Assembly (NCBI RefSeq): GCF_036250695.1
Contig: NZ_CP109427.1
Location: 5,580,001 to 5,644,000 of the forward strand
Reading direction: 5' to 3'
DNA: 64,000 nt
Origin: Streptomyces sp. NBC_01497
GTDB lineage: Bacteria; Actinomycetota; Actinomycetes; Streptomycetales; Streptomycetaceae
Position 1 is the stretch's first letter; every line of letters begins with the position of its first letter. A program made the translations under genes and the position numbers. This document shows positions 1-11,155 of the stretch, one piece after another. The notes below the pieces were generated by a model. That model was not told the DNA's origin. It worked only from the letters and a program-made list of their open reading frames with translations, and made no database searches.

Positions 1-2
1 GG

Positions 3-104
3 CGGGAGGGGGACCGCGTCCCGGGCCAGGGGCAGGGCGCGGGCGGCGGACCCCTCGGTACGGGTGCCGAGGACGGACGGGACGGACGGGGGAAGCGCGT
101 ATGA
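3..104 (+). CDS. C-terminal end of an upstream gene (partial)
   Basis: A frame open from the window edge ends in TGA at 102-104, and this stop overlaps the ATG of the kinase gene at 101 in the ATGA arrangement typical of translationally coupled actinomycete genes. The visible 33 residues are Gly/Arg-rich tail with no recognisable domain. In mycobacteria the gene upstream of pknG encodes a glutamate-binding lipoprotein, so that is the natural guess, but nothing seen here proves it. Another frame stays open to 132, so the assignment is tentative. Confidence 0.35.
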   Translation, partial: REGDRVPGQGQGAGGGPLGTGAEDGRDGRGKRV

Positions 105-2920
105 CGGGGTCGACGGCATGTCAGCGGCCTGACTGCGAGGGAATGTACGAGGACGTGGGCGGGGGCGAGCTGTACTGCGACGTCTGCGGCCTCGCGCCCG
201 TCGTGTCGCCGACGGGCTCGCTGTCCTCACCGCCGACCGGGCTCGCGGCCGCCGCGAAGGAGCGGGCCGGGACGGGCGCGGGATTCGGCGCGGGGACGGG
301 CAGGGGGAACGGGACAGCCACGGGACCCGGCGTCGGCACCGGCGCGGGCGGCGGGACCGGTAGGGGCACGGGGCCGGGTGGCGGCGCCGGCGCGGCGGGC
401 TCCACACTCGCCGGCTCGGAGAGCTCGTCCCGTTCCTCGCGTTCCTCGACGTCCCGGCGCTCGGTCTCCGGGCGGCTCTCCAGGGCGCTGTCCGGTGAGA
501 CGTCCGGCCGGTCGGTCTCCGTGATCAGCTCCGGCAACTCTGGCTCGCCGTCCGGCCGCAGCAGGCTCGGCGCGGGTCTCGTCTCGATCCCCGACGTGCC
601 GAAGCCCGACCCGCGCGCCGCGGTGATGGACAACGCCGAGGTGCCGGAGCGCAAGCGGTTCTGCTCGCGCTCCGACTGCGGCGCGCCGGTGGGCCGTTCG
701 CGCGGCGACCGGCCCGGCCGCACGGAGGGCTTCTGCACCAAGTGCGGCCACCCGTACTCCTTCGTGCCGAAGCTGCGCGAGGGCGACATCGTGCACGGCC
801 AGTACGAGATCGCCGGCTGCCTCGCGCACGGCGGCCTCGGCTGGATCTACCTGGCCGTCGACCGGGCGGTGGACGGCCGCTGGGTGGTCCTCAAGGGCCT
901 GCTCGACACGGGCGACGCCGACGCGATGGCGGCGGCCATGTCCGAACGCCGCTTCCTCGCCGAGATCGAGCATTCGAACATCGTCCGCATCTACAACTTC
1001 GTCGAGCACCTGGACCCGCGCACCGGCTCCCTGGACGGCTACATCGTCATGGAGTACGTCGGCGGCAAGTCGCTGAAGGAGATCGCCAACGACCGGCGTT
1101 CGCCCGCGACCGGCCGGCGCGACCCGCTGCCGGTCGAGCAGGCGTGCGCGTACGGCATCGAGGCGCTGGGCGCGCTCGGCCACCTGCACAGCCGGAATCT
1201 GCTGTACTGCGACTTCAAGGTCGACAACGCCATCCAGGCCGAGGACCAGCTCAAGCTCATAGACATGGGCGCCGTCCGGCGGATGGACGACGAGGACTCC
1301 GCGATCTACGGCACGGTCGGCTACCAGGCTCCGGAGGTCGCCGAGGTCGGCCCGTCGGTCGCCTCCGACCTGTACACGGTCGCGCGCACGCTCGCGGTGC
1401 TCACGTTCGACTTCCAGGGCTACACCAATGTGTTCGTGGACTCGCTGCCCGACCCGGAGCACATCGAGGTGTTCGGTCAGTACGAGTCCTTCTACCGCCT
1501 CCTGGTGCGCGCGACGGACCCGGACCCGGGGCGCAGGTTCTCCTCGGCCGAGGAGATGGCGGAGCAGCTGACGGGGGTCCTGCGCGAGGTCGTGGCGCTC
1601 CAGTCGGGCCGGCCCCGGCCCGCGCTGTCCACGCTGTTCGGCCCCGAGGTGCGGGTGACCGACGCCCAGTTGTTCGCCGAGCAGACGGACGACGTCTCGG
1701 TGCTGGGTGCGCGCCAGGTGCTCTCGCGCCGGTCCCGGCGCTCCGCCGCCCGGGCGCTGCCCGCGGGGCACGTGCCCCCGGCCGCCCCGGGCACCGCTCC
1801 GGCGGCGACCGCGCTGCCGCCCGCCGGATCGCGCCCCGGCGTGCCCGGGCAGCGCGGGCTGCTCCCCGCGGAGGCCGCCGGCGGCGCCCCGGGAGGAGGG
1901 CCCGCGCAGGCGCCCGCCGCGCCCCAGGGGGATACGGGCCGCACAGGGGCCCGGTCCGCCGCGGCGGAGGCGCTGCGGCTGGTCCCCCTGGACGTACGCG
2001 CGACGGTCCTCGCGCTGCCCGTACCGCGGGTGGACCCGAACGACCCCCACGCGGGATACCTCGCGGGCCTGCTCTCCTCGTCTGCGCACGGCGAGCTGAT
2101 AGCGGCGCTGGAGGTGGCGAAGAGCCACGCGTCCGGTGACTCGGCGGAGGTGCGGCTGCGTGAGGTGCGTGCGCACCTGGAGCACGGCGACACCGCCGCC
2201 GCCGCCGGTGCGCTCGGGGCCCTGCAGGCACGTCACCCCGACGAGTGGCGGGTTGTCTGGTGCCGGGCTCTGATGGCGCTGGTGACGGGTGACCACGCCA
2301 CCGCCGCGGTGTCCTTCGACGCGATCTACGATGCCTTCCCCGGCGAGCCCGCGCCGAAGCTGGCGCTCGGCGTGTGCGCCGAGGTACTGGGCCAGCTGGA
2401 CAACGCGGCGGAGTACTACCGCCTCGTTTGGGCGACTGACCCCAGCTACGTGAGTGCCGCCTTCGGGCTCGCCCGGGTCCGGCTCGCAGCGGGTGACCGG
2501 CAGGGCGCGGTCGCGACCCTGGAGTCGGTGCCGGAGGCGTCCATCCACTACACGGCCGCGCGGGTGGCCGCCGTACGGGCGCGGCTGCGCCGGCGGGTCT
2601 CGGTGGAGCCGCTGCTGCCGGATCTGACGGCGGCGGCGGACCAGGTGGAGGCGCTGCGGCAGCTGGGCCTGGACGCGGTGCGCCGGGAGCAGTTGTCGAC
2701 TGAAGTACTCGGGACGGCCCTGGACTGGGTAATCTCCGGGGGCCGGGGCGGTCGGGCCGATGCGACCACGACCCTCCTCGGCAGCCGTCTCGACGAGCGG
2801 GGCCTGCGCTTCGGACTGGAGCGCTCGTACCGGGCACTCGCCCGGCTCGCCCAGCGCGGCGAGGAGAGGATCGAACTGGTGGAGCGGGCCAACCGTTTCC
2901 GCCCCCGGACGTGGGTGTGA
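101..2920 (+). CDS. pknG: PknG-like serine/threonine protein kinase with zinc ribbons and TPRs
   Basis: 939 residues, ATG preceded by a GGGGGAAG ribosome site. Residues 7-29 and about 187-221 each hold a four-cysteine zinc ribbon (C-x4-C then CDVC or CTKC); between them lies a long Gly/Ser/Thr-rich linker. The kinase domain starts near residue 230, with the ATP-binding lysine at K265 (VLKGL), catalytic loop YCDFKVDN (D371, K373, N376) and DMG instead of DFG at 388-390. Loss of the HRD arginine and a rubredoxin-like metal site before the kinase are PknG hallmarks. The C-terminal part (about 640-860) is helical and TPR-like. In mycobacteria PknG phosphorylates FHA protein GarA and controls 2-oxoglutarate/glutamate flux; the FHA protein at 6109 is the obvious candidate partner here. 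It is followed with almost no gap by a PP2C phosphatase gene. Confidence 0.9.
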   Translation: MTGSTACQRPDCEGMYEDVGGGELYCDVCGLAPVVSPTGSLSSPPTGLAAAAKERAGTGAGFGAGTGRGNGTATGPGVGTGAGGGTGRGTGPGGGAGAAGSTLAGSESSSRSSRSSTSRRSVSGRLSRALSGETSGRSVSVISSGNSGSPSGRSRLGAGLVSIPDVPKPDPRAAVMDNAEVPERKRFCSRSDCGAPVGRSRGDRPGRTEGFCTKCGHPYSFVPKLREGDIVHGQYEIAGCLAHGGLGWIYLAVDRAVDGRWVVLKGLLDTGDADAMAAAMSERRFLAEIEHSNIVRIYNFVEHLDPRTGSLDGYIVMEYVGGKSLKEIANDRRSPATGRRDPLPVEQACAYGIEALGALGHLHSRNLLYCDFKVDNAIQAEDQLKLIDMGAVRRMDDEDSAIYGTVGYQAPEVAEVGPSVASDLYTVARTLAVLTFDFQGYTNVFVDSLPDPEHIEVFGQYESFYRLLVRATDPDPGRRFSSAEEMAEQLTGVLREVVALQSGRPRPALSTLFGPEVRVTDAQLFAEQTDDVSVLGARQVLSRRSRRSAARALPAGHVPPAAPGTAPAATALPPAGSRPGVPGQRGLLPAEAAGGAPGGGPAQAPAAPQGDTGRTGARSAAAEALRLVPLDVRATVLALPVPRVDPNDPHAGYLAGLLSSSAHGELIAALEVAKSHASGDSAEVRLREVRAHLEHGDTAAAAGALGALQARHPDEWRVVWCRALMALVTGDHATAAVSFDAIYDAFPGEPAPKLALGVCAEVLGQLDNAAEYYRLVWATDPSYVSAAFGLARVRLAAGDRQGAVATLESVPEASIHYTAARVAAVRARLRRRVSVEPLLPDLTAAADQVEALRQLGLDAVRREQLSTEVLGTALDWVISGGRGGRADATTTLLGSRLDERGLRFGLERSYRALARLAQRGEERIELVERANRFRPRTWV

Positions 2921-2923
2921 TTG

Positions 2924-4447
2924 ATGGCGCAGAAGCACCAGCGGGACGTCAGCACCTCGCCCTGCCCCAACCCGGCCTGCGGCGAACTGGTGGAGCCCGG
3001 CGACCTGTTCTGCGGTGCCTGCGGGTACGACCTGACGGCGGTGCCCGTGCCGGACGCGGGCGCCGACCACCCGACGGTCACGCTCGGCCGGGCCGGCGGC
3101 CACGGCCCGGAGCAGGGCGCGCCCGGGGCCAGGGTGTCGTGGCCGGACGCGGTGCCCGGCCAGGGGGCGGGCGCCCCGGTGGGCGCCCAGCGTCCCGGGG
3201 ATCTGCCGGGTATCGACTCACGGGGTGTCCAACTCCCTCCGGAGACAGGTGACTTCGTGCTGCGTTCGCCGAGTGACGGGCATCGGGGCACACCGGCGGA
3301 GCCGCCCCGCACGGGGACACCGGCTCAGCTGCCGGACCCCGTCGCGCCGGGCCCCGTCGCGCCGGGCTCAGGAGTGCGGACGGACGCCCCCGTGGCGCCT
3401 TCGGCGGCCCCCGCCCCGGTGGCGGGCCCGGGCGTGCCGCCGGACGGGGCCGTACCCGGCGCCGCCGCCCCCGCCGACCCGCGCATGGCCGGCCCGGCCG
3501 GTGCGCCGGCGGGCGGTGAGACGCTGTGCGTGGCCTGCCGGGCGGGCCGGGTCGACACCGACGGCTACTGCGAGAACTGCGGGCACGCGCAGCCCCGGGA
3601 GCGCGACCACGTCGAGCGCGACCTCGGCCGCGTCGCGGCCGTCAGCGACCGGGGTCTGCGCCACCACCGCAACGAGGACGCGTTCGCCGTGTCGAACGGG
3701 ACGGCCGCCGACGGGACCCCCGCGGTGATCGCCGTGGTCTGCGACGGCGTCTCGTCGGCGGCGCGCCCCGACGAGGCCTCGTCGGCCGCCTCGGTGGCCG
3801 CGGGCGAGTCGCTGCTGGCGTCGCTCCCGGGGGGCACGCACCCGCAGCAGGCCATGCACGAGGCGATCCTCGCCGCGGCCGAGGCGGTCAACTCCCTGGT
3901 GGGCGACGGCAGCGCGGTGGAGCGGGAGTCGCAGCGCCGGCAGAACGCCCCCGCCTGCACCTTCGTCGGCGCCGTGGTCACGGGCGGGCTGCTCGTCGTC
4001 GGCTGGGTCGGCGACAGCCGCGCGTACTGGGTACCCGACGATCGGACGACACAGGCGGTACGTCTGACCGAGGACGACTCGTGGGCCGCGCAGATGGTCG
4101 CGGCCGGGCTGATGAACGAGGCGGAGGCGTACGCGGACGAGCGTGCGCACGCGATCACGGGCTGGCTCGGCGCCGACGCGTACGAACTGCAGCCGCACAC
4201 CGCCTCGTTCAAGCCAGACCGGCCCGGCATCGCCCTTATCTGCACCGACGGGCTGTGGAACTACGCGGAGGGCGCCGACGAGATCGCCTCGGCCGTGCCC
4301 GCCGACGCGTCGGCGAGGCCGCTGCACGCGGCGCAGGTCCTCGTCGGGCACGCGCTGGACGGCGGGGGCCACGACAACGTAACAGTGGCCATCGTGCCGT
4401 TCCCCCTGGCGCCGGGCGGGGCAGGATCCGCGTACACCACGCCCTGA
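2924..4447 (+). CDS. PP2C-family protein phosphatase with two zinc ribbons
   Basis: 507 residues if ATG 2924 is used; a TTG at 2921 directly after the kinase stop is also in frame, so the genes are coupled. Residues 14-36 form a zinc ribbon (CPNPAC ... CGAC), a Pro/Ala/Gly-rich linker follows, and a second ribbon (CVAC ... CENC) sits at about 203-222 just before the catalytic domain. PP2C metal-binding motifs are complete: RNED near 250, CDG at 273-275, GDSR at 363-366, TDG at 441-443 and the final GGHDN with D484. It should dephosphorylate Ser/Thr targets of the neighbouring kinase, or the kinase itself. Cytosolic; no membrane segment seen. Confidence 0.88.
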   Translation: MAQKHQRDVSTSPCPNPACGELVEPGDLFCGACGYDLTAVPVPDAGADHPTVTLGRAGGHGPEQGAPGARVSWPDAVPGQGAGAPVGAQRPGDLPGIDSRGVQLPPETGDFVLRSPSDGHRGTPAEPPRTGTPAQLPDPVAPGPVAPGSGVRTDAPVAPSAAPAPVAGPGVPPDGAVPGAAAPADPRMAGPAGAPAGGETLCVACRAGRVDTDGYCENCGHAQPRERDHVERDLGRVAAVSDRGLRHHRNEDAFAVSNGTAADGTPAVIAVVCDGVSSAARPDEASSAASVAAGESLLASLPGGTHPQQAMHEAILAAAEAVNSLVGDGSAVERESQRRQNAPACTFVGAVVTGGLLVVGWVGDSRAYWVPDDRTTQAVRLTEDDSWAAQMVAAGLMNEAEAYADERAHAITGWLGADAYELQPHTASFKPDRPGIALICTDGLWNYAEGADEIASAVPADASARPLHAAQVLVGHALDGGGHDNVTVAIVPFPLAPGGAGSAYTTP

Positions 4448-4534
4448 CCGCCCGATCGATCACCGTTCCCTGTCCGCTTTCTGACGACGTGTCATATCAG
4501 AGCCGATGCCCGGAACGGCTCCGGTCCGCCGCGG

Positions 4535-4562
4535 CCGGGCCGCCGGGACCCCGGCGGCCCGG
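4535..4562. terminator. Hairpin between phosphatase and VWA genes
   Basis: Twelve-base perfect inverted repeat (arms 4535-4546 and 4551-4562) with a GACC tetraloop, GC only. It lies 88 bases after the phosphatase stop and 115 bases before the VWA start. It could end the kinase-phosphatase transcript or act as a partial terminator inside a four-gene operon; there is no T tract. Confidence 0.55.
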
Positions 4563-4677
4563 CGACTGCCCCGGCCGCCGGGGCGCCACGGCCCGTCACC
4601 CCCCCACCGCGCGAGTTCCCTCCGAATCGTTTCGAACCGTTTCCGCCCCAGCCGGTGGAGTGTCGAGGAGCCGACCC

Positions 4678-6003
4678 ATGGCGAACTTCTCCAAGTCGAA
4701 CGTGCCGCAGTTCAGAGTCGACGTGTACCAGAACGAGTACCTGGCCGAGGGTGCCCGTGAGGTCAACGCGATCGTGACGGTGACGTCCACGGGCGGCGGC
4801 ACCAGCGGCGGCGGCCTGGCGGGCCGCGGCTCCGGGGCGGCCGTGGTGATCATGGTGGACTGCTCGGGTTCCATGGACTACCCGCCGGAGAAGATGCGCA
4901 ACGCGCGCGAGGCGACGGCCGCCGCCATCGACACCCTGCGCGACGGTGTCTCCTTCGCGGTGGTCGCGGGGACGCACATCGCCAGGGAGATCTATCCGGC
5001 GAACGGGTCCCTGGCCGTCGCCGACGCGGAGACCCGTTCGCGCGCCCAGCACGCGCTGCGCTCCCTGGGGGCGGGCGGCGGCACCGCCGTCGGCACGTGG
5101 CTGCGGCTCGCCGACCGGCTGCTGTCGACGGCGGACGTGCCGATCCGGCACGGCATCCTGCTCACCGACGGGCGCAACGAGCACGAGTCGCCCGAGGATC
5201 TGCGCGCCGCGCTCGACGCGTGCGCCGGGCGCTTCACCTGTGACGCGCGGGGCGTCGGGACGGACTGGGAGGTCAAGGAGGTCACCGCGGTGGCCTCGGC
5301 GCTGCTCGGCACCGCCGACATCGTGGCCGACCCCGCCAACCTCAGCGCGGACTTCACGCAGATGATGGAGACCGCGATGGGCAAGGAGGTCGCGGACGTC
5401 GCGCTGCGGCTTTGGACCCCGATGGGCGCGGAAGTCCGCTTCGTCAAGCAGGTGGCGCCGACGGTGGAGGCGCTGACCGGCCGCCGGACGCTGAGCGGTC
5501 CGCGCTCCGGGGACTACCCGACCGGGTCGTGGGGTGACGAATCTCGCGATTACCACGTCTGTGTAGAGGTTCCCGAGGCGGCCGTCGGACGGGAGATGCT
5601 GGCCGCCCGCGTCTCGCTCGTCCTGCCCGCGCCCGACGGGGGAGCACCTCAGGTGCTGTCCCAGGGCCTGGTCAAGGCGGTGTGGACGGACGACATGGAG
5701 GCGTCGACGTCCATCAACCCGCAGGTCGCGCACTACACGGGGCAGGCGGAGCTGGCGCAGGTCATCCAACAGGGCCTCGACGCGCGCAAATCGGGTGATT
5801 TCGATGGCGCGACGGCCAAACTCGGCCGGGCGGTACAGCTGGCCGCGTCGTCCGGAAACGCGGACACTGCGAAATTGCTTTCGAAGGTGGTGGACGTGGT
5901 CGATGCCGCGACGGGTACTGTGCGACTGAAGGCGAAGGTGGCGGAAGCGGACGAGATGACCCTCGAAACGCGCTCCACCAAGACCGTCCGGGTCAAGAAG
6001 TAG
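4678..6003 (+). CDS. von Willebrand factor A domain protein
   Basis: 441 residues, ATG 4678 preceded by GAGGAG. The metal-ion-dependent adhesion site reads DCSGSM (D61, S63, S65), with a conserved threonine in GGGTAVGT and the second acidic loop ILLTDGRNEH, so the divalent-metal site looks intact. The VWA fold is followed by a beta-rich region and a C-terminal helical stretch ending in basic residues. No signal peptide and no membrane segment, so it is cytosolic, like TerY-type VWA proteins. The genes before and after encode a kinase, a phosphatase and an FHA protein, which matches the kinase/PP2C/VWA triads known as TerY-P systems. No zinc ribbon, in contrast to its three neighbours. Confidence 0.85.
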   Translation: MANFSKSNVPQFRVDVYQNEYLAEGAREVNAIVTVTSTGGGTSGGGLAGRGSGAAVVIMVDCSGSMDYPPEKMRNAREATAAAIDTLRDGVSFAVVAGTHIAREIYPANGSLAVADAETRSRAQHALRSLGAGGGTAVGTWLRLADRLLSTADVPIRHGILLTDGRNEHESPEDLRAALDACAGRFTCDARGVGTDWEVKEVTAVASALLGTADIVADPANLSADFTQMMETAMGKEVADVALRLWTPMGAEVRFVKQVAPTVEALTGRRTLSGPRSGDYPTGSWGDESRDYHVCVEVPEAAVGREMLAARVSLVLPAPDGGAPQVLSQGLVKAVWTDDMEASTSINPQVAHYTGQAELAQVIQQGLDARKSGDFDGATAKLGRAVQLAASSGNADTAKLLSKVVDVVDAATGTVRLKAKVAEADEMTLETRSTKTVRVKK

Positions 6004-6108
6004 CCCGCGGGAAGCACCGCGGAACCGGGCCGGACAACCACCGCAACAACCGCAAGCACCACCGAGTGGCGGCCGCGAGGCCGGATCAGGAGAGGGGGAA
6101 GCGCAGCC

Positions 6109-7410
6109 ATGCCGACCTGCCCCAACGGACACCAGTCGGGCTCCGACGACTGGTGCGAAGTCTGCGGCCATCGCATGGGCGGCCCTGCCGTACCGCCTCC
6201 CCCCGCACCGCCGGGCCAGGGGTACGGGTACCCGCCGCAGGGCCCCGGTCCCGCCGCCGTGTCCGAACTCTGCCCGCAGTGCCAGACGCCGCGTGAGGCC
6301 AACGCGCCGTACTGCGAGGAGTGCCGGTGGAACTTCCTCACCAACACCGCCACCTCGTACACGCCCCTCGCGCCGCGCACCACCAACGGCCAGGGCCCCG
6401 GCGGCGGGATCAACCTACCGCCCGGCTTCCAGACCCAGCCGCCGGGGCCGCAGACGACGCGCCCGCCGGAGCAGTACGGGACCCGGCCGCCCGACCCGTA
6501 CGGGACGCGCCCGCCGGAGCCGTACGGGACGCGCCCGCCCGAACCGCCCTACGAGGCGAGGCCGCCGGAGCCCTACGGGACAAGACCCCCCGAGCAGCCG
6601 CCCTACGAGCGGAGCGGAACCCGCCCCTCGCAGATCAACCGTCCCGCCGAACCCCTGCTCTCCGAGCCGGCGCCGGGGCCTGGCGGCGGAGCCGACGACG
6701 GCTGGGGCGCACCCCAGCCGTCGCGCTTCGAGCGCGTCTCGCCCCCGGCCGCCCCCGCACCGCAGGGGCCGGGCCCCACAGCGGGCGGCGACTGGGCGCC
6801 CGCGCCCCCCGCGCCGTCCTTCGACCGGCTCTCCCCGCCGCCCGCGCAGCCCGGCCCCGGCCCGGTCGCCGAGGACGACTGGATGCTGCCGCCGCCGTCC
6901 GCCTCGGGGCCGTTCCCGCCCCAGCAGGGGATGGAGCAGCCCGGTGTGCCGCCGCAGGGGACCCAGGGCGGGCCCGGGCCGCAGCAGCCGCGCTACCCCG
7001 GGCCGTCCCGGTGGGCCGTGGTGATCGGCCCCGACCGCGAGTACTTCATGGCGATGATGCACCGCAGCGGGCCGGAGGCCACGGGCCTCAACCTGCCCGC
7101 GTACTCGCCCGAGCAGCACATGCCGCTCACCGGCAACCAGGTCACCATCGGCCGCCGCAGGCACTCCACGGGGGAGTCGCCCGACATCGACCTCTCGGTG
7201 CCGCCTGAGGACCCGGGCGTCTCGCACCAGCACGCGATCCTCGTCCAGCAGCCGGACGGCGGGTGGGCCGTGGTCGACCAGAACTCGACCAACGGCACGA
7301 CCCTCAACGGCGGCGAGGAACCGATACAGCCCTACGTACCGATTCCGCTCGGTGACGGTGACCGGGTGCACGTGGGCGCCTGGACGACCATCCGGATCGT
7401 CCAGGACTGA
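6109..7410 (+). CDS. FHA domain protein with zinc ribbons and a proline-rich linker
   Basis: 433 residues, ATG 6109 after GGAGAGGGGG. Two zinc ribbons come first (CPNGH...CEVC at 4-23 and CPQC...CEEC at 55-74). A Pro-rich linker follows with six or so copies of a GTRPPEPY-like unit at about 123-165. The C-terminal FHA domain (about 340-433) has the phosphothreonine-binding residues GRRR (348-351), S372 and H375 in SHQH, and NSTNG (392-396). FHA domains read phosphothreonine, so this protein is likely a target or adaptor of the kinase at 101. The linker repeats probably vary in number between strains. Confidence 0.88.
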   Translation: MPTCPNGHQSGSDDWCEVCGHRMGGPAVPPPPAPPGQGYGYPPQGPGPAAVSELCPQCQTPREANAPYCEECRWNFLTNTATSYTPLAPRTTNGQGPGGGINLPPGFQTQPPGPQTTRPPEQYGTRPPDPYGTRPPEPYGTRPPEPPYEARPPEPYGTRPPEQPPYERSGTRPSQINRPAEPLLSEPAPGPGGGADDGWGAPQPSRFERVSPPAAPAPQGPGPTAGGDWAPAPPAPSFDRLSPPPAQPGPGPVAEDDWMLPPPSASGPFPPQQGMEQPGVPPQGTQGGPGPQQPRYPGPSRWAVVIGPDREYFMAMMHRSGPEATGLNLPAYSPEQHMPLTGNQVTIGRRRHSTGESPDIDLSVPPEDPGVSHQHAILVQQPDGGWAVVDQNSTNGTTLNGGEEPIQPYVPIPLGDGDRVHVGAWTTIRIVQD

Positions 7411-7445
7411 GCCCTGCGGACGGGGTCCCGGCCGGGACGCCCGGC

Positions 7446-7490
7446 GCGCTCCCGTCCGGTACGCGCTGCCTCCGTTGCGCTCCCGTCCGG
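7446..7490. repeat. 14-bp direct repeat in a convergent intergenic gap
   Basis: The 14-mer GCGCTCCCGTCCGG occurs at 7446-7459 and again at 7477-7490. It lies between the convergent FHA and methyltransferase genes. A GTCCCGGCCGGGAC palindrome lies just upstream at about 7427. No further function visible. Confidence 0.5.
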
Positions 7491-7493
7491 CGC

Positions 7494-8477
7494 TCAGGTC
7501 GGCGGGAGCGGCCAGACGTCACGCCCGTGCGGATCGTCCAGCCAGGCCCACTGGCCGGCGTCGGTGACCGTGACGCCGTAGCGCTCCCGCCCGGGGCGGT
7601 GCGCGTGGCGCCACAGGCCGTACGCCTCCTGCGGGTCGAGGCTCTGCGCGCTCAGCGCCAGCAGGAAGCGGAAGCTGTCGTTCGCCAGCACGTGCCGGGG
7701 CAGTTCCGCCGCCCGCTCGGCGAGGTCCTCGCCGAGGACGGGCGCGCCGCGCAGCGCCACGAAGAACGCCGAAGTGGGAAGGAACGTGCCCTGCGCCAGC
7801 CGCCCCCCGGCGGTGTCCGTCACCCGCAGGGAGATCAGCCCGGTGGCGAGCGGCGCGACGATGCGCCCGTCGGGCGCCGACTGCTCGACCCAGGCGCGCG
7901 GCACCGACGGCAGCGCGCAGGTCGCGATGATCCGGTCGAACGGCGCGCGCTCCGGGACGCCGCGGGCGCCGTCGCCCGTGAAGACGGCGGGCCGCCGGCC
8001 GGCCGCCCTGAGGTGGACCCGGGCCGACTCGGTGATCTCCGGATCCAGGTCGACGGTCGTCACGAGGTCGTCGCCGAGCCGGTGCGCGAGCAGCGCCGCG
8101 TTGTAGCCGGTGCCCGCGCCGATCTCCAGCACGCGGTGGCCGTCACGCACGTCCAGTTCGGCGAGCATCCCCGCCATCAGCGAGGGCTGGCTGCTCGACG
8201 AGATCAGCCGGCCGTCGCGCATGCGGGTACCGAGCGCGGTGTCCGCGTACGCGCCGCTCAGCCAGCGCCACCGGTTCTCCTGATCCGGGTCGCCGGACCA
8301 CAGCCGCCTGCTGCCGCCGCTGCCCTCGACGTAGTAGTAGGGGACGAACAGATGCCGGGGCACGGCCTCGAACGCGGCACGCCAGGCCGGGTCGGGCAGC
8401 GCGCCCATGGCGGCCATGTCGCGCACCATCGTGGCCCGCGCCTGGGCGGCGTGGGCCTCCTCGTCGTATCCGGTCAC
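7494..8477 (-). CDS. PCMT-family SAM-dependent methyltransferase
   Basis: 327 residues from GTG 8477. The SAM-binding motif is VLEIGAGTGYNAALLA (about residues 120-135), followed by an acidic post-motif (TVDLDPEI) and the GDGARG loop; upstream lies the SSSSQPSLMAGML stretch characteristic of the protein-L-isoaspartate O-methyltransferase family. At 327 residues it is longer than the ~210-residue repair enzyme, with an extra C-terminal domain, so the substrate may not be isoaspartyl protein; related long forms act in peptide-modification systems, but no precursor gene is seen nearby. Stands alone, convergent with the FHA gene. The GTG start has only a cramped ribosome site (GGAAGG touching it); ATG 8429 is an alternative. 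Confidence 0.75.
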   Translation of the reverse strand: MTGYDEEAHAAQARATMVRDMAAMGALPDPAWRAAFEAVPRHLFVPYYYVEGSGGSRRLWSGDPDQENRWRWLSGAYADTALGTRMRDGRLISSSSQPSLMAGMLAELDVRDGHRVLEIGAGTGYNAALLAHRLGDDLVTTVDLDPEITESARVHLRAAGRRPAVFTGDGARGVPERAPFDRIIATCALPSVPRAWVEQSAPDGRIVAPLATGLISLRVTDTAGGRLAQGTFLPTSAFFVALRGAPVLGEDLAERAAELPRHVLANDSFRFLLALSAQSLDPQEAYGLWRHAHRPGRERYGVTVTDAGQWAWLDDPHGRDVWPLPPT

Positions 8478-8576
8478 CCTTCCACTGTCAGCCCTGACGG
8501 TCGGCCGGGCGAGTGCGGGAGCCCGCCGTGCGGGGCGCAGGGACCGGCGGTGGGGGAGCGTGGGGGGCCGGAGCGC

Positions 8577-9110
8577 TCAGCCCGGGGACTGGAGGGTCCT
8601 GCTGGGGCTCTCTCCGTACATCGATTTGTACTGTTCGGCGAAACGGCTGAGGTGGGTGAAGCCCCAGCGGTACGCGATCTCGGAGACGGAGGAGCCGGCC
8701 GGGTCGGCCCGCACGAGCTCCGTGTGGGCGCGGCGAATCCGGACGGACTGCAGGTACTTCATGGGCGACATGTTCAGATTCCGCCGGAACGTGTTCTGGA
8801 GCGCGCGCACGCTCACGTGCACCTGGCCCGCGATGTCCCCGACGGTCAGGGGCAGTTCCGGCTGATCCTCGATCAGGGCGATCGCGGCCTTCAGGGCGCG
8901 CGGCCGCAAGTCCTCCGCCGCGGCGCGCAACGGGCCGGACGCCGTGTGCGTTGTGGCGAGCAGGAACCCGTTGACGAGGGACTCCCTGATGGGCCGCGCG
9001 GCCAGCGGCTGGGCGAGCAACCCGCCCGGCGTGGCGCCGAGTTCGGTGGCCGTGCGGACCAGCCTCGCCCAGTCCCCTCCGGCGCCGGTCCGGCGCGCGC
9101 CAGCGCCCCT
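8577..9110 (-). pseudogene. 5'-truncated AraC-family regulator
   Basis: From about 9074 down to the TGA at 8577-8579 the frame encodes the last ~165 residues of an AraC regulator with the cupin-like ligand domain: DWARLVR...GGLLAQPL, then a complete two-HTH AraC domain (SVRALQNTFRRNLNMSPMKY, RIRRAHTELV, SEIAYRWGFTHLSRFAEQYK). The ~180-residue N-terminal ligand domain normally present is missing. Between the HTH part and the XRE stop at 9217 there is no ATG, GTG or TTG in frame and the translated residues are Arg/Ala-rich nonsense. The simplest reading is a gene whose 5' half was lost, probably when the XRE/aminopeptidase pair was placed here. The 9110 boundary is approximate. Confidence 0.7.
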
Positions 9111-10370: not shown

Positions 10371-10702
10371 AGCCCTGGTCACCGCTCCGAACCCGAAGGC
10401 CGGCACGCAGAACTCCGCACCGGAGTGCGCGCTGCGGCGGCCACGTGCAGGCGGGTGGTCGGCCGTACGCGCGAAAGCCCGGCGGCTCACGCAGGCACCG
10501 GGCATCAGCGCGGTCACCTCGGGTGTCGAGGGTGAGGGTGTCGCTGCCCGCCTCCCGGGCGTCGGCCATCAGGCCGGCGGTCCCGCCCGGGTCGCCGGGT
10601 GAGCCGACGAAGCCGCCGCCGGCCGACCGCACGGTCAACGCCCTCCCGGACGACGGGAGCCGGACGACGGGCGGGCACCGCTCCCCCCTTGCCGTGGGGG
10701 GC
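10371..10702. other. Intergenic stretch without a gene
   Basis: About 330 bases between the aminopeptidase stop and the globin promoter. Open frames here have poor codon use and no ribosome site. I see no RNA gene. The dyad at its right edge is listed separately. Confidence 0.5.
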
Positions 10703-10730
10703 GGTCCTAGGACCAGGGGCCTGGTCCTGG
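10703..10730. promoter_or_regulatory. Overlapping palindromes before the globin gene
   Basis: A perfect 12-base palindrome GGTCCTAGGACC (10703-10714) overlaps a second perfect inverted repeat with 9-base arms, AGGACCAGG (10709-10717) and CCTGGTCCT (10720-10728), separated by GG. The structure ends 22 bases before the GTG start of the globin. Position and symmetry suggest an operator for a dimeric regulator; the regulator is not identifiable from this window. Confidence 0.6.
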
Positions 10731-10750
10731 CCGTCTGCGACCATGGGGGG

Positions 10751-11155
10751 GTGACAGAGATCAGGCGCGGCACGCTGAGTGAGCAGACGTTCTACGAGGC
10801 GGTCGGCGGCGAGGAGACGTTCCGCCGTCTGGTGCACCGCTTCTACGAGGGTGTCGCGGAGGACCCGCTGCTGCGGCCGATGTACCCGGAGGAAGACCTC
10901 GGCCCGGCCGAGGAGCGCTTCCGGCTGTTCCTGATCCAGTACTGGGGCGGCCCGCGCACCTACAGCGAGCAGCGCGGACACCCCCGGTTGCGGATGCGGC
11001 ACGCGCCGTTCGCGGTCGACAGCGCGGCCCGTGACGCCTGGCTCGCCCGGATGCGGGTGGCCGTCGAGGAGCTGGAGCTGCCGCAGGAGTACGAGCAGCA
11101 GCTCTGGGACTACTTCACCTTCGCCGCCCAGTCCATGGTCAACACCCCCGGCTGA
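10751..11155 (+). CDS. Truncated haemoglobin (trHbO-like)
   Basis: 134 residues from GTG 10751, the usual size for group II truncated globins. The features are [33 protein letters not shown] at the N terminus, then the proximal-histidine region [10 protein letters not shown] and a WLARM...ELELP helix. FLIQYWGG with its distal tyrosine and tryptophan is typical of the trHbO group. It binds haem and O2 or NO in the cytosol. Expression is probably controlled at the dyad just upstream. Convergent with the kinase at 11376. Confidence 0.9.

Follow-up and report, generated by a model that had tools for sequence, protein, structure and literature searches.

The first four genes of the window, i.e. 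the stretch of 64,000 nucleotides analysed here (positions 5,580,001 to 5,644,000 of the forward strand of contig NZ_CP109427.1 from Streptomyces sp. NBC_01497, whose genome comprises two contigs and 9.08 Mb), encode a PknG-type kinase, a PP2C-type phosphatase, a VWA protein and an FHA protein. Judged by their sequence, they make up the 3' part of an operon of seven genes, glnX-glnH-(coiled coil)-pknG-PP2C-VWA-FHA, and by the features tested this is a PknG pathway locus in an extended form. According to passages in several papers, glnX-glnH-pknG is already established in actinobacteria as the PknG locus for amino-acid sensing: GlnH binds an extracellular amino acid, GlnX passes the signal on, and PknG phosphorylates GarA/OdhI, which releases 2-oxoglutarate dehydrogenase (PMC6069109, PMC9769921, PMC8546545). 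The sensing locus is known; its extension with PP2C, VWA and FHA genes is apparently new, and no description of PknG, PP2C, VWA and FHA as one operon was found in the open-licence literature. One report states, in the portion available, that the glnX-glnH-pknG arrangement is widely conserved, with the word phosphatase absent from its main text (PMC6069109), and part of another mentions actinobacterial kinase-PP2C-VWA neighbours in a GTPase-centred context (PMC7159879).

The four genes in the window all lie on the plus strand, and the first-pass annotation, which had described them as adjacent genes for a PknG-like kinase, a PP2C, a VWA and an FHA protein, is borne out by Pfam matches. The pknG orthologue (101..2920, 939 amino acids) contains, in this order, an extra N-terminal ribbon, a low-complexity linker and the rubredoxin, kinase and TPR domains. 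It matches PknG_TPR (PF16918, E 1.5e-88; 297 bits, cut-off 27), PknG_rubred (PF16919, E 8.9e-33; 112.5 bits, cut-off 28.5) and Pkinase (PF00069, E 8.9e-23), as well as the M. tuberculosis PknG structure 2pzi (E 5.2e-171); the rubredoxin domain, a known PknG feature, is located at 557..775 (residues 153-225) and the TPR domain at 1976..2911. The pknG stop codon TGA (2918-2920) is followed three bases on by the ATG of the PP2C gene at 2924, with an in-frame TTG at 2921. The phosphatase (2924..4447, 507 amino acids) has two N-terminal ribbons and its catalytic motifs are present. The VWA protein (4678..6003, 441 amino acids; Pfam matches VWA_3, VWA_2, VWA and VWA_3_C) consists of a VWA domain with metal-ion-dependent adhesion site (MIDAS), a beta-sandwich and C-terminal helices, and the FHA protein (6109..7410, 433 amino acids) of two N-terminal ribbons, a long linker predicted to be disordered, and a C-terminal FHA domain (7141..7377) with the canonical phosphothreonine-binding residues.

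The first three genes of the operon are found just left of the window on the same strand as pknG (locus L003, bases 5568001-5587500 of contig 1). The glnX-position protein (L003:7856-9271), assigned by place and profile, has no Pfam match of its own; the GlnX-built profile also picks up the gene at the same position in mycobacterium-like loci, with 396-427 bits after iteration. The glnH-position protein (about L003:9283-10404) is a family-3 solute-binding protein (SBP_bac_3, E 1.3e-22) that matches M. tuberculosis GlnH with an E of 3.6e-40. In an alignment with hand-counted positions it keeps R147, T162, R169 and D250 of the six M. tuberculosis ligand contacts (residues as listed in part of PMC6069109), with S164 changed to Thr and W232 to Gln, and Lys161, a seventh contact via water, is Arg; given the changes of Ser164 and Trp232, the ligand may differ from the Asp/Glu that GlnH binds in the known pathway. 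Between glnH and pknG a gene for 461 amino acids (L003:10719-12104), termed coiled coil by appearance only and without a Pfam match, overlaps the kinase ATG with its stop codon by 4 bp. GarA is encoded elsewhere: its orthologue (L065:about 1309-1851; contig 1 position 6950550, 1.37 Mb from the operon; 187.6 bits against an OdhI cut-off of 200) retains the ETTS site, with a zinc ribbon just before it.

The set is conserved far beyond this genome. PknG exceeds the PF16918 cut-off in 59 of 61 genomes sampled at the family level, in 82 of 217 at the class level and in 12 of 158 at the phylum level. A selection of 100 neighbourhoods from the PknG_TPR matches (not all of them) gave, with the window's own, 101 loci, which were searched with seven protein profiles built on the first 60 loci, the window's own and its paralogue stretch. 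PP2C, VWA and FHA genes accompany pknG in 61 of these 101 loci, distributed over seven families, and the order PknG-PP2C-VWA-FHA is kept in 60 of the 61, the exception being L154; GlnX is present in 59 of the four-gene loci, GlnH in 59 and the coiled-coil protein in 57. The functional motifs are kept as well: DxKxxN and DxG of PknG occur in all 61 and VVLKG in 59, the five PP2C motifs in 56-60 and the three MIDAS motifs of the VWA protein in 53-55, and the groove residues of the FHA domain are all but invariant in 67 orthologues. In the loci of family f59 the sensors are encoded downstream (coiled coil-PknG-PP2C-VWA-FHA-GlnX-GlnH and variants), so that the four genes stay together as a block irrespective of the side on which the sensors are found.

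A second set of loci, selected by their VWA and, except for one that equals L156, outside the profile building, agrees with the first. It contains the best 80 of at least 582 confirmed relatives from a scan with a VWA alignment, ranked by closeness to a Nocardioides-like query, and includes Nocardioides, Kribbella, Janibacter, Cellulomonas, Oerskovia, Rathayibacter, Agreia, Kineosporia and Microlunatus. Where the flank allows, these best 80 loci have FHA downstream in 71 of 73 cases (misses L225 and L227), and upstream PP2C in 63 of 64 (miss L233), PknG in 59 of 64 (misses L201, L225, L233, L241 and L242) and the coiled-coil protein in 55 of 64; with about 9 kb available upstream, GlnX is found in 18 of 20 and GlnH in 14 of 20. 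Homologues of the four genes are thus not routinely scattered, and sequence comparison identifies the four as a real conserved set, not a chance neighbourhood.

Moreover, the module appears mostly to come and go as a unit. None of PP2C, VWA and FHA is present in 20 of the 101 PknG loci: nine of family f3 (mycobacterium-like by its PknG and GarA), seven of f60, two of f1 (Streptomyces by protein matches), L036 (f82) and L040 (f59). The nine are all the mycobacterium-like loci in the sample; the extra N-terminal PknG ribbon was not found in them, and eight have glnX and glnH, L027 having PknG alone. Six of the seven f60 loci form a PknG paralogue clade beside a reversed glnH-glnX, L055 being of another kind, and the two Streptomyces loci are stand-alone PknG copies. 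The other incomplete loci comprise six with VWA alone, four with VWA and FHA, two with PP2C and FHA, two with PP2C alone and six cut by contig ends. Among 21 genomes with no PknG match over the cut-off, often with only part of the first-look candidates scored, a single VWA_3_C match was obtained, a frame of 105 amino acids, in a search (PF18571) that undercounts VWA proteins, as it missed the divergent one of G175; a rubredoxin-domain search added weak matches below the cut-off in G176 and G227, the latter also with a weak TPR match. In G358 the PF18571 search also located a VWA_3_C, next to a second PknG-like match. In L017, L023, L164, L039 and L033, and in L151 and L152, the MIDAS domain is seemingly lost or no VWA was found between the retained PP2C and FHA.

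The structural model of the VWA protein resembles archaeal ArnB in its fold of three parts, i.e. a VWA domain, a beta-sandwich and C-terminal helices. The protein gives no match at E 0.1 to TerY_C, which we take to be the marker of TerY-like VWA proteins. Its C-terminus is a conserved Ser/Thr tail, DEMTLETRSTKTVRVKK (5944..6000, plus strand), which we propose as a phospho-docking site for the FHA protein. In 37 sequences the tail, DEMxLDTxSTKTxR (residues 423-438), has a mean column identity of 0.85, compared with 0.65 for the VWA domain, 0.75 for the beta-sandwich, 0.77 for the helices and 0.72 for residues 405-421; D425, M427, L429, T431 and S433 are identical in all 37, and T434, T436 and R438 in 36, the remainder being a gap. 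LDTxSTKT or a close variant occurs in 132 of 136 loci with an FHA gene and a VWA above 300 bits, a count that rests on a search pattern itself requiring the Ser and the last Thr and that omits FHA loci whose VWA scores lower (six) or in which no VWA was matched (two). The four misses are f60 paralogues without PP2C, a TVRVxK-like tail is retained by the low-scoring VWA proteins of L017, L023 and L164, and none of six loci with VWA and without FHA has the full motif. The ETxST within the tail resembles the GarA phosphosite ETTST, a lead only, as its first Thr is not invariant.

The zinc ribbons are the second recurring element. By pattern, six metal-binding clusters are present, two each in the kinase, the PP2C and the FHA protein, and none was found by this search in the VWA protein of the window. 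The first-pass annotation had counted them as six CxxC...CxxC ribbons joined by long low-complexity linkers; number, distribution and linkers hold, and the strict spacing is restricted to PP2C ribbon 2 (3527..3580) and FHA-protein ribbon 2 (6271..6324), both CX2C...CX2C. The extra PknG ribbon (119..187), the rubredoxin and PP2C ribbon 1 (2963..3022; CX2C...CX2C in most relatives displayed) are of the type CX4C...CX2C, and FHA-protein ribbon 1 (6118..6165) is CX3H...CX2C. One of the six, the second in the kinase, is the rubredoxin already known from PknG (PF16919), so that five are extra. A pattern count over the 61 four-gene operons gave two ribbons in PP2C plus two in FHA in 53, one plus one in five, two plus one in two and five plus two in one; since 53 of 61 share the same numbers, the ribbons of the PP2C and FHA proteins are, as far as sequence tells, not there by chance. 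The extra PknG ribbon occurs in one to three copies among relatives, L058 having three. For the FHA protein, AlphaFold gave a weak model (mean pLDDT 54.5, 38 sequences), whose best-ordered blocks are the two ribbons (pLDDT 78-86), followed by about 220 low-confidence residues and a partly modelled FHA domain. In three of the six loci with VWA and no FHA (L059, L061 and L064, paralogous PknG-VWA loci that lack PP2C as well) the VWA protein itself terminates in a zinc ribbon. A ribbon is thus found on the VWA protein where the FHA partner with its ribbons is missing, and no other sequence feature hints as strongly at a physical association of ribbons and VWA.

Based on the gene identities, the conserved order, the motifs, the ArnB-like fold of the VWA model and the conserved tail, as read from the sequence, we infer a course of events beyond the PknG-GarA step. 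We somewhat favour the view that the extended PknG operon encodes a phosphorylation-gated VWA/FHA scaffold with a PP2C reset and docking via ribbons. GlnH and GlnX would report extracellular amino acids to PknG, which would phosphorylate GarA and in addition either the Ser/Thr tail of the VWA protein or the N-terminus of PknG itself. The phosphothreonine formed might then be bound by the FHA protein, by analogy with the zinc-finger FHA protein ArnA, which binds the C-terminus of ArnB, resulting in a scaffold gated by phosphorylation that the dedicated PP2C may reset, probably together with GarA; the distant GarA would remain the metabolic output. The ribbons of kinase, phosphatase and FHA protein would most likely be modules for protein docking, by which writer, eraser and reader are brought together on the VWA platform, and redox or zinc control via the PknG rubredoxin may exist in addition. 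The first-pass annotation had proposed a complete write/erase/read/scaffold circuit; these parts are present in the conserved set, but the list is incomplete, as the sensors GlnH and GlnX, the upstream protein and GarA lie outside it.

A number of observations argue against a simple version of this scaffold model. The N-terminal PknG ribbon is present in 70 of 70 tabulated loci with VWA or FHA and missing in 18 of 21 with neither, i.e. among 91 loci 70 have both, 18 neither, three the ribbon only and none VWA/FHA without the ribbon; the ribbon state was assigned by reading the sequences, degenerate forms being scored as present, and the table omits L061 and L064 (absent from the tree), L043, L057 and the six loci cut by contig ends. 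On the tree, midpoint-rooted without an outgroup, this association was not significant (median p = 0.25 in both directions): on average 2.6 of three independent ribbon changes coincide with VWA/FHA, and the six independent VWA/FHA changes are divided into three with and three without a ribbon change. The fourth metal ligand also varies between lineages. The fourth Cys of the rubredoxin is Asp in several (L013, L038, L040, also L035 and L059; e.g. CPHDG, CPYDR), and a four-Cys rubredoxin pattern was not found in L013, L016, L038, L040, L041 and L157-L159; in the N-terminal ribbon, several f60 loci have Thr and L032 has Asp as fourth ligand, the operon being kept. A correlated loss of one ribbon each in PknG, PP2C and FHA of the f60 genera g147 and g155 was not used as evidence, as the 'lost' PknG ribbons are three-Cys forms with Thr as fourth ligand, L136 breaks the pattern and only one family is concerned. 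Finally, GarA carries its ribbon in 13 of 19 PknG-less genomes.

The last result speaks against the idea that all ribbons represent one pathway code, which was rejected. The ribbon is present on GarA in 27 of 28 genomes with the four genes (all except G175) and in three further PknG genomes with partial or cut loci, and missing in seven of eight PknG genomes whose fetched loci are without PP2C, VWA and FHA; the six mycobacterium-like GarA proteins are all without it. These counts refer to 58 genomes with a readable N-terminus (of 60 rows, G372 and G177 had no readable motif), G167 gave no GarA match, and extra weaker matches in G093 and G171 were left uncounted. As 13 of the 19 PknG-less genomes keep it, the GarA ribbon would be older than, or independent of, the extended operon.

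Alternatively, the ribbons may be metal or redox sensors, so that zinc loss or Cys oxidation on kinase, phosphatase and FHA protein would switch the circuit and amino-acid sensing would be secondary. Cys clusters are distributed over three partners, six in all, and disturbing the rubredoxin metal centre of M. tuberculosis PknG is reported, in parts of the literature, to alter its activity (PMC8546545, PMC6069109). The fourth ligands of rubredoxin and N-terminal ribbon, however, vary (Asp, Thr) while the operon stays; this agrees better with a structural or docking role than with a thiol switch that is conserved, and no redox gene was seen in the conserved set. We regard this explanation as unlikely, and it is more likely, on the sequence pattern, that the ribbons assemble a complex rather than sense metal.

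Equally improbable in our view is that the FHA protein is another GarA-type substrate of PknG acting on a metabolic enzyme, with VWA and PP2C as accessories that form no complex with it. The FHA groove is intact, and PknG recruits FHA substrates via its own phosphorylated N-terminus, according to part of PMC8546545. Nevertheless, the FHA protein of the window is no OdhI/GarA orthologue: it reaches 19.2 bits against the NCBIfam OdhI cut-off of 200 (the true GarA, with 187.6 bits, is also below), shows no ETTS-type N-terminal site, and the true GarA is encoded elsewhere. PknG's known FHA partner, to which the first-pass annotation had pointed, is thus a different protein. Furthermore, FHA follows VWA in the conserved order, and the three FHA-less paralogous loci have a VWA with its own ribbon.

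A TerY-P type triad (VWA, PP2C and zinc-ribbon kinase) for stress or defence, which the first-pass annotation had mentioned as a known setting of kinase/PP2C/VWA triads, has the same three domain classes and a ribbon on the kinase by its definition (in part of PMC11090510), and the kinase-PP2C-VWA neighbourhoods mentioned in actinobacteria (part of PMC7159879) would suit it, but it is most improbable. The kinase is a PknG (TPR, rubredoxin, N-terminal ribbons) inside a glnX-glnH operon, and both its ribbons are N-terminal of the kinase domain, whereas in TerY-P the ribbon or OB-fold of the kinase is C-terminal. The VWA shows the fold of ArnB and 4FX5 together with VWA_3_C, without a TerY_C match, and PknG occurs in nearly all sampled genomes of the family, which is not the pattern of a sporadic defence island. 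Membership is ruled out by the type of kinase, the place of its ribbons and the family of the VWA. PADLOC matches only the kinase domain (models PD-T4-6 and mad6) and none of the other three proteins, and a defence system was rejected.

As to signals in the DNA itself, no sigma-70-like site was found in 2850-7600, and the two terminator-like sites in this range, at 5859-5871 on the plus strand inside the VWA gene and at 6004-6023 on the minus strand, compare with 1.0 expected by chance; Rfam gave no match at the gathering threshold in window positions 1-9000. Downstream, at 10445-11155, a truncated-haemoglobin-like protein is encoded, judged from its translation alone. A second PknG_TPR frame in the same genome (L004:7606-8526, minus strand, contig 1 near 1485677) covers the TPR part only, with 312 amino acids, and together with an adjacent short kinase-like frame looks like a degraded stand-alone PknG paralogue; longer stand-alone copies are present in congeners (L062, L063).

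PknG is much studied, but the literature examined covers mycobacteria and corynebacteria, and the nine mycobacterium-like loci are all without the added genes. If the extended operon is one pathway, it would name the phosphatase that reverses PknG signalling in the other carriers of PknG, explain the role of the conserved partners around the kinase, and connect the amino-acid sensing of antibiotic producers among the actinomycetes with one operon that can be deleted. It would also provide a concrete bacterial setting for an ArnAB-like VWA/FHA pair together with a precise predicted docking motif, LDTxSTKT.

Compared with the GlnH-GlnX-PknG-GarA/OdhI pathway, the locus has the same glnX-glnH-pknG neighbourhood, with glnX and glnH in the pknG operon, the same PknG domain order with rubredoxin (found in PknG outside Corynebacterium), kinase and TPR domains, the last a proposed scaffold for the contact with GlnX (part of PMC8546545), and a GarA/OdhI substrate with the ETTS site elsewhere in the genome. 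It differs from the pathway of mycobacteria and corynebacteria by the added coiled-coil, PP2C, VWA and FHA genes, the extra N-terminal ribbon of PknG and the ribbon of GarA. With the TerY-P triad it has in common that VWA, PP2C and a ribbon-bearing kinase are encoded together, whereas kinase family, ribbon position, VWA family and the presence of FHA differ.

By fold and domain set, the VWA and FHA proteins resemble ArnA-ArnB from Sulfolobus (8s05, 5a8j), where, as described in part of PMC6509490, ArnA is a zinc-finger FHA protein that binds the VWA protein ArnB. Both systems have a VWA domain with MIDAS, a beta-sandwich and a C-terminal helical domain, a Ser/Thr-rich C-terminus, a link to the nutrient state, and a partner FHA protein with an N-terminal zinc-binding module (here by pattern) and, in our case, an intact groove. 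Sequence identity, however, is only 13-16%, the FHA protein of the window has two ribbons compared with one RanBP2-type finger, ArnC/ArnD and PP2A take the place of PknG and PP2C, and there is no archaellum here; a solved VWA protein structure from Catenulispora acidiphila, 4FX5, is cited as a structural neighbour in passages of the literature, and the PDB title of 8s05 describes ArnAB as an archaeal orthologue of the Sec23/24 core. More tentatively, we may speculate that the PknG operons of actinobacteria specify a bacterial complex of the ArnAB type. The VWA protein would serve in it as a platform for the docking of interchangeable ribbons of FHA protein, kinase and phosphatase, gated by PknG phosphorylation of the LDTxSTKT tail, and the three-gene mycobacterial operon would represent a stripped-down form of this amino-acid-sensing complex.
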